Source: a virus. From it: a stretch of 26,640 nt of DNA. Under the pieces are notes generated by a model. That model was not told the origin of the DNA, ran no database searches, and saw only the letters and a list, made by a program, of their open reading frames with translations. Shown here piece after piece: positions 11,032-23,343 of this stretch. The DNA lies in the IMG/VR virus record IMGVR_UViG_3300025828_000156, positions 1 through 26,640 of that record. One strand, written 5' to 3'. The position numbers and the translations under genes were made by a program. Within the stretch, counting starts at the first letter, position 1; each line of letters opens with the position of its first letter.

Positions 11032-11395
11032 CGATGGTACTTACTACGAGCCAGACGATGAGCAGATCATCTATTGGCAGAATGCTTTTCCGAAGGTAGA
11101 TGTCTTTGCTGAGTTAAGCGCTATGGCCGCGTGGTGCGATGCTAACCCCAAGAAACGTAAGAAGGATGGCAAGCGCTTTGCACAAGCGTGGTTAAGCCGG
11201 GCATCCCAGCAGGAAAGGGGTGTGTCGCCATTTGCCGCCAAACTAACGGAAAATAGTGGTAAAATCGGCATAAAGCAATGGACGCAACTTGACGATCTCA
11301 CCCATGACTTCCTTAAATCCGAGAAGTATCGAGCGCACTGCCTTGAGAAATACGGCCAGTACGTCACCTTTGAAGGTGAGCGAGTAACCGCATGA
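11018..11395 (+). CDS. Putative replication-associated protein
   Basis: 125 residues, overlapping the acidic gene by 14 bases. IIYWQNAFPKVDVFAELSAM followed by AAWCDANPKKRKKDGKRFAQ and AWLSRA matches the C-terminal pattern I associate with phage replication-initiation and replisome-organiser proteins (W..aFP.vDV..EL..m..W...NP.kR...rF...WL.r). Those proteins usually carry an N-terminal origin-binding winged helix, which is missing here, so this may be a split or minimal version. The rest is helical and basic. Next gene is NinB. Assignment tentative. Confidence 0.45.
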   Translation: MIILNDGTYYEPDDEQIIYWQNAFPKVDVFAELSAMAAWCDANPKKRKKDGKRFAQAWLSRASQQERGVSPFAAKLTENSGKIGIKQWTQLDDLTHDFLKSEKYRAHCLEKYGQYVTFEGERVTA

Positions 11396-11787
11396 GCGAG
11401 CGCTGGTTCGTAAACAACAAGTTCCAAGCCGATCAGTTCTGTGAGTACATCCGGGCTAATCAGGACAAGGGCCATATCTACGAGATTATCCCTGTCACCC
11501 GTACCGGAAAGCAGAACGATGCTATCCACGCATATTGCCGTGAGGTCGCTAGTGTTATGGCGGCTCATGGTATGGACATGAAGACCGTCATCAAAGACGG
11601 CGTACCTATCGAACCCACTATGTACCTGATCAAAGATTACATGTGGCGACCTATCCAGAAAGCAGTAACCGGCGTTGAGTCCACGAGGAAGATCAATCCC
11701 ATGGAGGTCAACGACATTTACGAGGTTTTGAGTAGGCTATTAGTCGAAAAATACTCGATCAACGTGCCATTTGGGAGGCGCATTTAG
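11392..11787 (+). CDS. ninB: NinB-like recombination protein
   Basis: 131 residues, close to lambda NinB in size. NKFQADQFCEYIRANQDKGH, TRTGKQNDAIHAYCREVASV and MAAHGMDMKTV are characteristic of NinB (Orf), a ssDNA-binding recombination mediator that replaces host RecFOR functions. It ends with LSRLLVEKYSINVPFGRRI. It is coupled to the previous gene by ATGA. With the annealing protein, SSB and an HNH/NinG-like nuclease it completes a lambda-Red-like recombination set. Confidence 0.75.
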   Translation: MSERWFVNNKFQADQFCEYIRANQDKGHIYEIIPVTRTGKQNDAIHAYCREVASVMAAHGMDMKTVIKDGVPIEPTMYLIKDYMWRPIQKAVTGVESTRKINPMEVNDIYEVLSRLLVEKYSINVPFGRRI

Positions 11788-13214: not shown

Positions 13215-13365
13215 GTGTCACAAGATCATGGTGCCGCAGTTCAAGAAAGAGTATCCCCATAAGCTGGATGGCTGGTCGTGCGATTGCGGCAACTGCGAGA
13301 AGGCTATTCTACGAGAGCGCCAATACACGAGGGCCGATGATGGCAGTCAAGCGCGAGCAGTGTGA
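13174..13365 (+). CDS. Small zinc-ribbon-like protein
   Basis: 63 residues from ATG 13174, chosen because GAGGGA lies 5 bases upstream. A CxxC pair (CTECHK) near residue 12 and CDCGNCEKA near residue 40 supply five cysteines in a zinc-ribbon or small treble-clef pattern, with basic loops between. It overlaps the previous gene by 41 bases and the following nuclease gene by 29 bases, each in another frame. Possibly a nucleic-acid-binding accessory to the HNH protein. Zinc binding is inferred from cysteine spacing. Confidence 0.5.
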   Translation: MTLKSYLPQMTCTECHKIMVPQFKKEYPHKLDGWSCDCGNCEKAILRERQYTRADDGSQARAV

Positions 13366-13723
13366 TATCTGGTTTTCAAAGGCGGTAAGGTTACGAGACG
13401 GGAAGTGCCTACACTGTCACAAGACTGATCGGCTAGAGTGCGCCCATATCTACGGGAGAGCCAACAAGCGAGTGCGCTGGGCTATGTCAAACGCTACCGC
13501 CTTGTGCCATGCCTGCCATCGATACTTTACGTCCAACCCTATAGCATTCCACGACTGGCTGAATGTCGAGCTTGGCGAGGCGCACATGGATAAGTTGCGG
13601 CAGGATCGGAACGAGATTTACAAAACCAACAAGCTGTTGAGAAAGGATATCTCTGATCACTACCGCGATGAGGTCAGGCGTAAAGAAATAGATCCCGAGT
13701 ACGAGATTCAGAGTTGGAACTAA
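13337..13723 (+). CDS. HNH-type/NinG-like endonuclease
   Basis: 128 residues from ATG 13337 (or 13340) with GAGGG just upstream. Cys24-x2-Cys27 (CLHCHKTD), the ECAHIYGRANKRVRW segment with His37, Asn52, and Cys57-x2-Cys60-His61 (CHACHRYF) form the zinc-stabilised HNH fold seen in NinG/Rap-type phage recombination nucleases. The C-terminal helix is highly charged. NinG-type enzymes resolve branched DNA, fitting the NinB, SSB and annealing genes upstream. It ends the rightward early operon and overlaps the convergent leftward gene by 50 bases. Confidence 0.7.
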   Translation: MMAVKREQCDIWFSKAVRLRDGKCLHCHKTDRLECAHIYGRANKRVRWAMSNATALCHACHRYFTSNPIAFHDWLNVELGEAHMDKLRQDRNEIYKTNKLLRKDISDHYRDEVRRKEIDPEYEIQSWN

Positions 13724-20752: not shown

Positions 20753-21487
20753 ATGGAAGAACAGGCCGTAGAAACAAACGATACCCTGACATCACTCGTT
20801 GATGCCGCTGAACCTACGTTGAGCGAGGGTGAATACTTCTTATCTGACAATGTAAAAGGCGTTGGCGAGATGCCCGAGTGGTACAAAGCCGACAAGTACA
20901 AGTCAGTCGCAGAGCAAGCCAAGGCATACACCGAGCTTGAGAAGAAGTTTGGTGGATTCACTGGCGCACCAAAGGACGGCTATCAGGTATACGATGGCGT
21001 CGAGTCGGACGATGCACTGTGGGGCGAGCTTGTAGAGTTTGGCAACAGCACCAATATGTCTCAGTCTGCGTTGAATCAGGCATGGGAACTATTGACAGCG
21101 CAAGAGCAAGCCATTGAGGAAGTGTCTGTTGAGGCAGAGATGGCAAAGCTGGGCGATAACGCTGTTGAGCGTATCAAGGTTGTTGAGCAGTACATGAAGA
21201 ACAATCTCGATGCCGATACATACGAAGAGCTTCGCTACGCTGTGAACAGTGCTGAGTCTGTGAAGCTGATCGAGGCGCTGGTCAAGTCAACAGCACCTGC
21301 AAAGCTACCGATTGACGGCTATGTCGAACCCGGTGGACTTGAGTGGGCAGACATCGAGGCAGAGATGTTCCGCAAGGATGAGAACGGCAATCTGCTTCGC
21401 TCTGTTGACATAAACCATGAGCGCAAGATTCAGCGCATGATGAAAGAGTTTGGTGGTGATAAGCCATATACGCAGACGTTTGGCTAA
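20753..21487 (+). CDS. Scaffolding/capsid assembly protein
   Basis: 244 residues with a good GGAG ribosome site. Highly acidic N-terminus, then MPEWYKADKYKSVAEQAKAY and TELEKKFGGFTGAPKDGYQV, which are typical of T7-gp9-like scaffolds. Helical middle and a basic C-terminus (NHERKIQRMMKEFGG), the end that contacts capsid protein. It precedes the capsid gene, as expected. Confidence 0.75.
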   Translation: MEEQAVETNDTLTSLVDAAEPTLSEGEYFLSDNVKGVGEMPEWYKADKYKSVAEQAKAYTELEKKFGGFTGAPKDGYQVYDGVESDDALWGELVEFGNSTNMSQSALNQAWELLTAQEQAIEEVSVEAEMAKLGDNAVERIKVVEQYMKNNLDADTYEELRYAVNSAESVKLIEALVKSTAPAKLPIDGYVEPGGLEWADIEAEMFRKDENGNLLRSVDINHERKIQRMMKEFGGDKPYTQTFG

Positions 21488-21501
21488 CACTAACAAATAG
21501 T

Positions 21502-21634
21502 GGTATCATCGGCGCATCGGATACCCCTTTCACAAGGCCCGGTAGTTTAGGTTGAACGACTGACCGGCTATCGGGTACTCAGTCCAAAACCTCTAAATCA
21601 TTGTTATCAACTTTGACAACGAGGAGACTGAATC
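21502..21634 (+). promoter_or_regulatory. Structured 5' leader of the capsid gene
   Basis: Inverted repeats: GGTATC/GATACC (21502-21525); CCCGGTAG/CTATCGGG (21538-21575, one G-U); GACTGA/TCAGTC (21558-21584); TTTAG/CTAAA (21546-21597). The second cannot form together with the last two, so two exclusive folds are possible. A near-palindrome GTTATCAACTTTGACAAC lies at 21603-21620, then GAGGAG before the ATG. Confidence 0.5.
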
Positions 21635-22468
21635 ATGTCAAAGAATCTTTCGGCAGTTGCCGTACAAGAGTTTGACAGCATGGTGAAACAGGCATACCAA
21701 GGTATGGGTGTGCTCAAGCCTGCTGTTACAGTTCGCAACAACGTTGTGGGCGACATCTACAAGTTCCGCCGTATGGGCAAGGGCTTGGCTAACCAAAAAT
21801 CTACTTCTGACCTAGTCACTCCAATGGACGTGACTCACGAGTTCAAGAATGCGACTCTCGCAAACTGGAACGCTCCTGAGTACACCGACATCTTTGACCA
21901 GCAGGAAGTAAACTTTGACGAGAAGCAAGAGCTTGCGAATACTATCGCTGGCGCTCTTGGCCGTCGTTGTGACCAGCTTGTCATTGACGCGATGGATGCC
22001 TCTACTCCGCTGACTACTACAGTTGCGGCTGGTGGCACCAACTTGACAATGGCTAAGGTCATCGACGCTCAGGTTGAGCTTCGCGATCAAGGTGTTCCAT
22101 CTTCTGAGTTGTTTGCTGTTATCGAAGCAGGCGGTTTGGGCGGATTGTTGAACGATGAGAAAGCAACTTCTAGCGACTATCAAAACATCAAGGCACTCGT
22201 ATCTGGCGAAGTCAACACACTTGTTGGTTTCCAGTTCATGGTGATCGAAACTCGTACTGAGGGTGGTTTGACTGAAGCGGCGAATATTGTTGACTCTTGG
22301 TTCTTCCAGCGTCCAGCTGTTGGCCTTGCTATCGGCATCGACATGAAGACAGAAATTAACTGGATTCCCGAGCGTACAGCTTGGCTTTCAAACGGTATGT
22401 TGAAGGCTGGCTCTGTTGTACGTGACGAGGGTGGTCTCGTTAAAGTTCAATACGACAAGACTGCGTAA
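21635..22468 (+). CDS. Major capsid protein
   Basis: 277 residues with GAGGAG 8 bases before ATG. Sequence features such as AVQEFDSMVKQAYQGMGVLK, GDIYKFRRMGKGLA and LGRRCDQLVIDAMDASTPLT look like short-tailed-phage HK97-fold capsid proteins, and codon usage and position (after scaffold, before tail tubular genes) agree. It should be the most abundant late product. Preceded by a structured leader. Confidence 0.8.
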   Translation: MSKNLSAVAVQEFDSMVKQAYQGMGVLKPAVTVRNNVVGDIYKFRRMGKGLANQKSTSDLVTPMDVTHEFKNATLANWNAPEYTDIFDQQEVNFDEKQELANTIAGALGRRCDQLVIDAMDASTPLTTTVAAGGTNLTMAKVIDAQVELRDQGVPSSELFAVIEAGGLGGLLNDEKATSSDYQNIKALVSGEVNTLVGFQFMVIETRTEGGLTEAANIVDSWFFQRPAVGLAIGIDMKTEINWIPERTAWLSNGMLKAGSVVRDEGGLVKVQYDKTA

Positions 22469-22481
22469 GGAGAACTAAGTC

Positions 22482-22739
22482 ATGGCATTTGATTACACTA
22501 AGCTCTCACGCATTGGCGGTATGGGCGATGCTCAGAAGGTTTACGCTTATGCGTCAACTGATTCAATCGCAACTGTTACTGGCGCGGATTACTTCCTGCC
22601 AGCAATCAATGAACTTGAAGTCAACGACATCATTTTCGTAAGCGACTCGGATGCGGCGGCTGTTACTATCACTTTTGTGAAGAGCAACACCGGCACTGCA
22701 ATCGACTGCGCGAGCGGAACTGCACTCGGCGACGCATAA
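22482..22739 (+). CDS. Small decoration-like protein (85 aa)
   Basis: 85 residues with AGGAG 9 bases before ATG. AFDYTKLSRIGGMGDAQKVY and YASTDSIATVTGADYF are followed by beta strands (VNDIIFVSDSDAAAVTITFV). The first 50 residues are clearly related to the start of the protein at 23343, pointing to a shared virion-surface domain. Directly after the capsid gene, a decoration or head-fibre base role fits. Followed by a terminator-like hairpin. Confidence 0.65.
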   Translation: MAFDYTKLSRIGGMGDAQKVYAYASTDSIATVTGADYFLPAINELEVNDIIFVSDSDAAAVTITFVKSNTGTAIDCASGTALGDA

Positions 22740-22746
22740 GTTCCAC

Positions 22747-22762
22747 GGCCCCTTCGGGGGCC
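22747..22762 (+). terminator. Hairpin GGCCCC-TTCG-GGGGCC after the decoration gene
   Basis: Perfect 6-bp stem with a stable TTCG loop, followed by ATTCTAATTCT (only moderately T-rich). It could let part of the capsid-level transcription end here, raising capsid and decoration output over tail genes. Confidence 0.6.
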
Positions 22763-22782
22763 ATTCTAATTCTGGGTGAGTT

Positions 22783-23343
22783 ATGGCGAGTAAGATCGAC
22801 TTAATTAGCAATGCGCTTATTCTGATCGGGGATACTCCGATTAACGCACTTACTGGCGGATCACGGCGCGAGACAGTTGCCAACAATCTTTACGACAACA
22901 TCGTCCAGAACGAGCTAACAAAGCATCGTTGGGGCTTTGCACGTAGGAAGGCACAGATATCTCTGTTGACGGATACCCCGGTTGACCCCAATGGCTGGAG
23001 AAGCATCTACCAGCTACCCACTGACATGCTGTTCTTGATCACTGTGACACCTGATTCCAACTATCAGATTTATGGTGACAAGGTATACAGCAACTCTACC
23101 CAAGCCCTATACGCTGACTACATTGCAAACGTCACTGAAGATGAGTGGCCTGTGTACTTCGCAAAGATGATCGAGTACGCATTGGCTATGGACTTCGCGG
23201 CGAGCATTAGAGACAGTTCTGCGGCACGAGGTGAGATGGCGGCGGCCTATGTGAATGCGTCCCGTATGGCGCGATATACGGACTCTCAGCAGTACCCAAC
23301 GGAGCAACTACGAAGCAACCCGTTCACTAATGTGAGGTTCTAA
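22783..23343 (+). CDS. Tail tubular protein A (T7 gp11-like)
   Basis: 186 residues, near gp11 length. SKIDLISNALILIGDTPINA and LYDNIVQNELTKHRWGFARR match the opening of tail tubular protein A, and EYALAMDFAASIRDS is the typical second half. It should form the adaptor ring below the connector. Its stop shares a base with the next ATG (TAATG). Confidence 0.85.
   Translation: MASKIDLISNALILIGDTPINALTGGSRRETVANNLYDNIVQNELTKHRWGFARRKAQISLLTDTPVDPNGWRSIYQLPTDMLFLITVTPDSNYQIYGDKVYSNSTQALYADYIANVTEDEWPVYFAKMIEYALAMDFAASIRDSSAARGEMAAAYVNASRMARYTDSQQYPTEQLRSNPFTNVRF

Follow-up and report, generated by a model that had tools for sequence, protein, structure and literature searches.

A conserved leader RNA with two mutually exclusive folds lies before the major capsid gene of a marine phage

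The capsid gene locus

The DNA analyzed here, referred to below as the window, is a stretch of 26,640 nucleotides (positions 1 to 26,640 of IMG/VR virus record IMGVR_UViG_3300025828_000156), and all of the leader features that we describe are on its plus strand. The major capsid gene (21635–22468) encodes a 277 amino acid protein that matches phrog_3437 with an E value of 1.2e-50, and relatives of this marine phage are present in many IMG/VR metagenome contigs. It is separated from the preceding gene by a gap of 147 bases (21488–21634). An earlier note, made from the sequence of the window, had called this the longest gap in the late block, and so it is among the 11 junctions examined, where the runner-up has 43 bases. 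The 244 amino acid product of the preceding gene has no match among the PHROGs or Pfam families, and the gene's position appears to be that of a scaffold gene. The plus strand of the gap, called the leader here, wholly contains no open reading frame of at least 20 amino acids; a TTG frame of 24 codons overlaps the start of the capsid gene.

A terminator-like hairpin (22747–22762) lies 3′ of the small gene just downstream of the capsid gene, a consensus match only, with two found where 1.5 are expected. Both such sites in the interval 21350–22860 are downstream of the leader, and there is no terminator-like hairpin with a T run within it, so that transcription attenuation, one way of reading the control of transcription or translation proposed by the earlier note, is unsupported. 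Elsewhere in the window there are weak matches, under the curated cut-off, to λ NinB (11392–11787) and NinG (13268–13723).

A promoter scan by consensus gave a sigma-70-like match at 21480–21509 (TTGGCT at 21480–21485, an 18 nt spacer, and TATCAT at 21504–21509), one of two found where 1.3 are expected. In all 55 of the distinct leaders described in the following section the –10 hexamer precedes the first base of the structure that we call hairpin 1 by 6 nt (52 leaders) or 7 nt (3 leaders). The hexamers are TATCAT (24), TATTAT (18), TATCTT (11), TAGTAT (1), and TATAAT (1), and the bases between hexamer and hairpin vary freely in sequence. From this fixed spacing we infer that the transcript begins with the element itself, at position 21516, the first base of hairpin 1.

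Related leaders in metagenome contigs

Among the matches listed in a capsid protein search, 78 of 80 capsid-similar IMG/VR loci have the leader, and the contigs of the other two (L001 and L038) end just upstream of the capsid gene; these capsid-selected loci, two of which lack upstream sequence, give the unbiased figure for its prevalence. Further relatives were added through a pattern search for hairpin 2. Of 78 distinct matches, two (L121 and L149) are clearly unrelated to the leader; two more (L100 and L136) are truncated or show no capsid match in the tested stretch. The alignment used below (A1) holds 55 leaders, related to one another and thus not independent, that were picked by a regular expression demanding parts of both hairpins, so some of its invariant columns are forced. 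The same expression matches 75 of 79 newly fetched loci; two of the four non-matches (L390 and L440) are diverged copies of the leader, and the other two (L396 and L437) are the contigs of L001 and L038 again, cut off upstream.

The element is single-copy: the 55 sources (425,259 bases) contain 55 strong matches to its model, and the five other matches score at most 16.8 bits. No DNA similarity was found in annotated phage records. The hairpin 2 pattern occurs in 24 stretches of bacterial genome contigs, none of which resembles the full element by eye. The covariance model of the leader (R1) gave two weak matches in 385 genomes, at chance level (E = 0.0065 and 0.048 per genome), and matched none of three in a further set. 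A compensated version of the pattern, CCGACCG...ACTCGG, occurs in 41 stretches, none of them on a locus with a capsid relative by tblastn, and the pattern CTGGCCR...ACCCAG in 79, one of which (L565, the contig of L390) is the capsid leader.

The window's leader considered alone

The earlier note had pointed to several complementary motifs in the leader, and all of them are present: CCCGGTAG at 21538–21545, CTATCGGG at 21568–21575, GACTGA at 21558, TCAGTC at 21579, TTTAG at 21546, and CTAAA at 21593. In the single sequence they do not stand out, since 32% of 300 dinucleotide shuffles contain an equally long helix and eight of 200 shuffles fold equally well (z-score –1.91). We therefore dropped significance arguments from the single sequence; the significance of the helices comes from the relatives rather than from the window alone.

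The same note had suggested that the leader might be an RNase processing site; such a site, for late transcripts, would suit its location before the capsid gene. RNase III sites are duplexes of roughly 20 bp, and conserved internal loops are not required for that enzyme. The longest helix in the leader with at most one G-U pair is 8 bp, no tool result favors processing, and a transcript with its own promoter would have no need of it. We consider this reading very improbable indeed.

Fold I: two hairpins with matching internal loops

One of the two conserved arrangements, Fold I, consists of two hairpins. Hairpin 1 (21516–21543) is formed by ATCGG (21516–21520) and CCGGT (21539–21543), an outer helix that is paired in 100% of alignment cells, and has a 5′ bulge ATAC (21521–21524), an unpaired C (21538), and an inner CCTT/AAGG hairpin that is 83.7% paired. 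Its general scheme is RTCRG, RNAC, the inner hairpin, Y, and the complement of the first strand; the A and C of the bulge are invariant in the alignment, in part because of how the regular expression was built. Inner pair 12-21 occurs as CG, AU, UA, GC, and GU, and is unpaired in 23 rows, where by eye the register is shifted. Hairpin 2 (21549–21592) stacks AGGTT/AACCT (21549–21553 with 21588–21592), then GACTGA/TCAGTC (21558–21563 with 21579–21584), then CCGR/YCGG (here CCG(G) at 21564–21567 with (T)CGG at 21571–21574), and carries GYAC on its 3′ side (GTAC, 21575–21578). Each hairpin thus has a GG-RNAC-YC strand opposite a short strand, on the 5′ side in one and the 3′ side in the other, so that the two internal loops match and are mirrored. 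The TTTAG/CTAAA pairing of the earlier note is not conserved in its outermost part, AGGTT/AACCT being the part that is; that helix is only 82.6% paired in A1 because the MAFFT alignment shifts AGGTT by one base in some sequences.

In the 47 distinct rows of the 55, 94.6% of Fold I cells are paired (short loop pairing included) against 90.5% in column shuffles, and none of 500 shuffles reaches either this value or the covariation score; by the tool's own warning such shuffle statistics, here and for the second fold, are inflated by the relatedness of the sequences. Changes were also placed on a capsid gene tree, which covers 54 of the 55 sources (L186 has no usable capsid), with expected values taken from the substitution spectrum of the unpaired columns. 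On it 37 of 41 single changes in Fold I preserve the pair where 19.3 are expected, a value not reached in 200000 simulations but one whose significance is removed if a transition share of 0.8 is assumed (p = 0.07), and double compensations are few, at five.

Fold II: an alternative long helix

The second arrangement is built on strand A (CCCGGTAG, 21538–21545), part of which (21539–21543) pairs with 21516–21520 in Fold I, and strand A′ (CTATCGGG, 21568–21575), which belongs to hairpin 2 in Fold I. In Fold II, A (columns 24–32 and 38) pairs with A′ (columns 60–69) in 99.5% of cells, and none of 500 column shuffles is as high in percentage paired or in covariation score. All 10 single changes in Fold II preserve the pair where 4.7 are expected (p = 0.0006, or 0.11 with the assumed transition share of 0.8), and no more than two double changes occur on the capsid gene tree. 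The informative part of the fold is the set of pairs outside the hairpins, 29-64 (C-G or U-A), 30-63, and 31-62. The pairing of CCCGGTAG with CTATCGGG does exclude GACTGA/TCAGTC, as the earlier note had it; GACTGA/TCAGTC and TTTAG/CTAAA, the latter extended to TTTAG(GTT)/(AACCT)CTAAA, are compatible and belong to the same hairpin.

Two other readings were considered. A compact pseudoknot with all helices together is unlikely, since hairpin 2 would have to remain closed with all 3–4 nt of its apical loop paired to A. A DNA-level operator, in which a motif would occur twice in direct and once in inverted orientation, is disfavored because the changes preserve RNA pairing, G-U pairs included.

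When each fold was forced in ViennaRNA, on sequence running from hairpin 1 to 15 nt beyond the start codon's first base, all 55 leaders were more stable in Fold II, by a mean of 5.9 kcal/mol in energy models that take no account of proteins or pseudoknots. This would fit a ligand-free, metastable timer, in which young RNA in Fold I is translated and then relaxes to Fold II and shuts off. Equilibrium folding of the growing chain speaks against it, since A is predicted to be paired with A′ once A′ is out in all 55 leaders, before hairpin 2 can form, and a timer leaves the invariant bulges unexplained; we give it a small probability.

Leaders not used to build the model

Three leaders (L390, L440, and L459) were not used in building R1, which scores L390 at 55 bits and the others at 84 and 91, and in all three every Fold I and Fold II pair listed is a standard pair. 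L440 has CCAA/TTGG in place of CCGA/TCGG, a change of the P3b pair from G-C to A-U. The most diverged copy seen is that of L390 (L390:1386–1500, contig IMGVR_UViG_3300017914_000909), which rebuilds both folds with new bases. Its hairpin 1 is ATCGG-ATAC-hairpin-C-CCGAT, the helix of which is kept there and in L440; GACTGG/CCAGTC changes a P3 pair from A-U to G-C, and A and A′ have become CCCGATGAT and ATCATCGGG, with nine of nine pairs Watson-Crick.

These comparisons bear on the possibility that Fold I alone matters, as a two-hairpin element that binds a protein or ligand or as a 5′ stabilizer of the capsid mRNA. The invariant bulges are meaningful only in Fold I, and a stem placed, as here, at the predicted first base would protect the 5′ end. 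Fold II would then be a by-product of the use of TCGG/CCGA by both hairpins, the sequence demands on A and A′ being common to hairpins 1 and 2. Against this, Fold I has no need of the linker that follows A or of the apical loop of hairpin 2, and still these two remain complementary (29-64, 30-63, and 31-62); in L390 their pairing is rebuilt as GAT/ATC. We regard a role for Fold I alone as unlikely, while giving it some weight. A conserved, single-copy RNA with two mutually exclusive folds is what the leader is, and as such it is very probably functional.

A predicted link to the ribosome-binding site

Because GACTGA recurs beside the ribosome-binding site, TCAGTC could pair with either copy: the strand freed in Fold II, TCAGTC...CCTC (21579–21593), is complementary to the region that holds the GAGG ribosome-binding site and the second GACTGA copy (21621–21631, with GACTGA at 21626–21631). 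For 54 of the 55 leaders the folding predicts a more open site in Fold I (unpaired 0.54, vs. 0.22 in Fold II), as it does for two of the three held-out leaders; among the latter three, L459 is nearly flat (0.37 in Fold I and 0.34 in Fold II) and L390 goes in the opposite direction (0.05 and 0.35). The freed strand and the ribosome-binding region are predicted to pair with a native mean of –11.39 kcal/mol over 35 distinct pairs; strands permuted among them have a mean of –9.65 (SD 0.27) and the lowest of 2000 permutations is –10.48, so the two are matched within genomes. This direct pairing is weak in L185, L093, and L098. Thus, what the earlier note had proposed stands as regards exclusive folds that evolution has kept before the capsid gene, and control of translation, judged by these folding models, appears to be the better-supported half of its claim.

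Capsid leaders in other phages

The MEP301-like phages have a different structured RNA directly before the capsid gene, with four hairpins (57 distinct leaders, L187:2856–2972 and 56 others, alignment A3; 14 loci were excluded by name as outliers, leaving 68 distinct leaders of which 57 were aligned). Its 24 pairs are formed in 94.1% of cells (79.3% in shuffles), and 20 of the 24 have changed on both sides (shuffled mean 12.1); none of 500 shuffles is as high in either respect. The first and last hairpins hold a GG-CNNA-CC-like strand facing GG-C-CC, and GG-NNA(C)-CC internal loops are the sole resemblance to window-type leaders. The MEP301-like model (R2) has no match in the window, in five window-type relatives tested, or in the 385 genomes, and R1 gives one weak match, on the minus strand (E = 0.95), in 50 loci. 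By eye, SI2-like phages have a third type of conserved capsid leader, AAGATGCAGACCC...ACGGCACCCGG...GGCCCG (L188:780–1018 and relatives among L294–L340), and the capsid leader of Vibrio phage CKB-S2 (L189:2888–2991) has two hairpins, each with a GG-ATAA-YC loop that lies on the 5′ side in one and the 3′ side in the other; a capsid search from the latter phage found two loci only.

A palindrome, TGTTTCAYRTGAAACA, occurs once per locus in 58 of 385 loci (for example, L037:2817–2832 and L065:2470–2485); where its position in the leader was read, it is 3′ of hairpin 2 and 5′ of the ribosome-binding site. It is one base off what we take to be the bacterial parS consensus, and might form a hairpin, serve as a ParB-type site, or do both. 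The palindrome is absent from the window, which has no match within three mismatches of TGTTTCACGTGAAACA.

Comparison with known RNA systems

Rfam at curated scores gives no matches in the window or in six loci including L187, L188, and L189, and a permissive scan of 21480–21660 gives a single chance-level match (E = 4.9). No hammerhead-like or other ribozyme core was seen by eye in the leader. No paper listed in our literature searches describes such a leader. A close likeness in design is to translational riboswitches, with which the leader shares its position, two mutually exclusive conserved folds, one strand common to both helices, a freed strand complementary to the ribosome-binding site, and conserved unpaired bases in one of the folds. 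It differs from them in preceding a structural virus gene, in its two matching, mirrored internal loops, and in having no Rfam match. At the MS2 replicase operator and the T4 gene 32 leader, a protein bound to the leader structure controls translation of a phage gene; the present leader differs in having two folds and two matching sites.

The put RNA of phage HK022 is about 70 nt long with two bulged stem-loops, putL being directly behind its promoter (PMC9378689). The present leader likewise has two bulged stem-loops close behind a predicted phage promoter, and with a terminator-like site downstream it could be a put-like element that binds RNA polymerase for read-through of terminators such as 22747–22762. 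HK022 put belongs to early operons, while here the gene is the late capsid gene and there is an alternative fold with pairing to the ribosome-binding site, neither of which a put-like role explains. R1 has no match in the HK022 genome at E values up to 10 (in this search direction), and the terminator is a consensus match near chance level, so we think a put-like role quite improbable. Regulatory RNA does occur in marine phages: in marine phage Melnitz a glutamine riboswitch controls a tmRNA gene (PMC9004378), but this is a known family and no capsid leader.

A possible switch on capsid translation

We propose that the leader could be a two-state RNA that opens the capsid mRNA at its 5′ end and controls capsid translation in cis. 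In the ON state, strand A would pair with the first bases of the transcript to make hairpin 1; with hairpin 1 formed, hairpin 2 would become possible, the anti-ribosome-binding-site strand would be held, and the ribosome-binding site would be more open. In the OFF state, A and A′ would form the longer Fold II helix, both hairpins would be destroyed, and the freed TCAGTC...CCTC would cover the ribosome-binding site. By predicted energy the default would be Fold II, and a factor recognizing Fold I would switch translation on; the likeliest candidate is a protein or a ligand, with two copies being employed. Such a factor is suggested by the invariant, unpaired bases of Fold I in its two matching GG-RNAC-YC loops. 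On the growing-chain prediction, in which A takes A′ as its partner once A′ is out, the leader would be OFF unless something held hairpin 1.

What we infer is where the transcript starts, that the folds bear on translation, and which of them is ON; the full proposal of a translational switch, off by default and turned on by a factor that binds Fold I, is the best of the readings considered and seems to us about evenly poised between right and wrong on these models. A more specific version is doubtful though worth stating, namely that the two internal loops are receptors for a signal of late infection, which might be scaffold or capsid protein in free form or a metabolite of the host, and thereby gate capsid production, that the leader represents a new class of phage RNA switch, and that related podovirus lineages have their own versions at that place. 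As judged from sequence comparison, the leader is probably a built-in switch on the amount of shell protein. To our knowledge, tailed phages that set their capsid amount with a leader RNA switch would be rare, and the trigger of the switch, once found, would show what the phage measures before committing to shell making.
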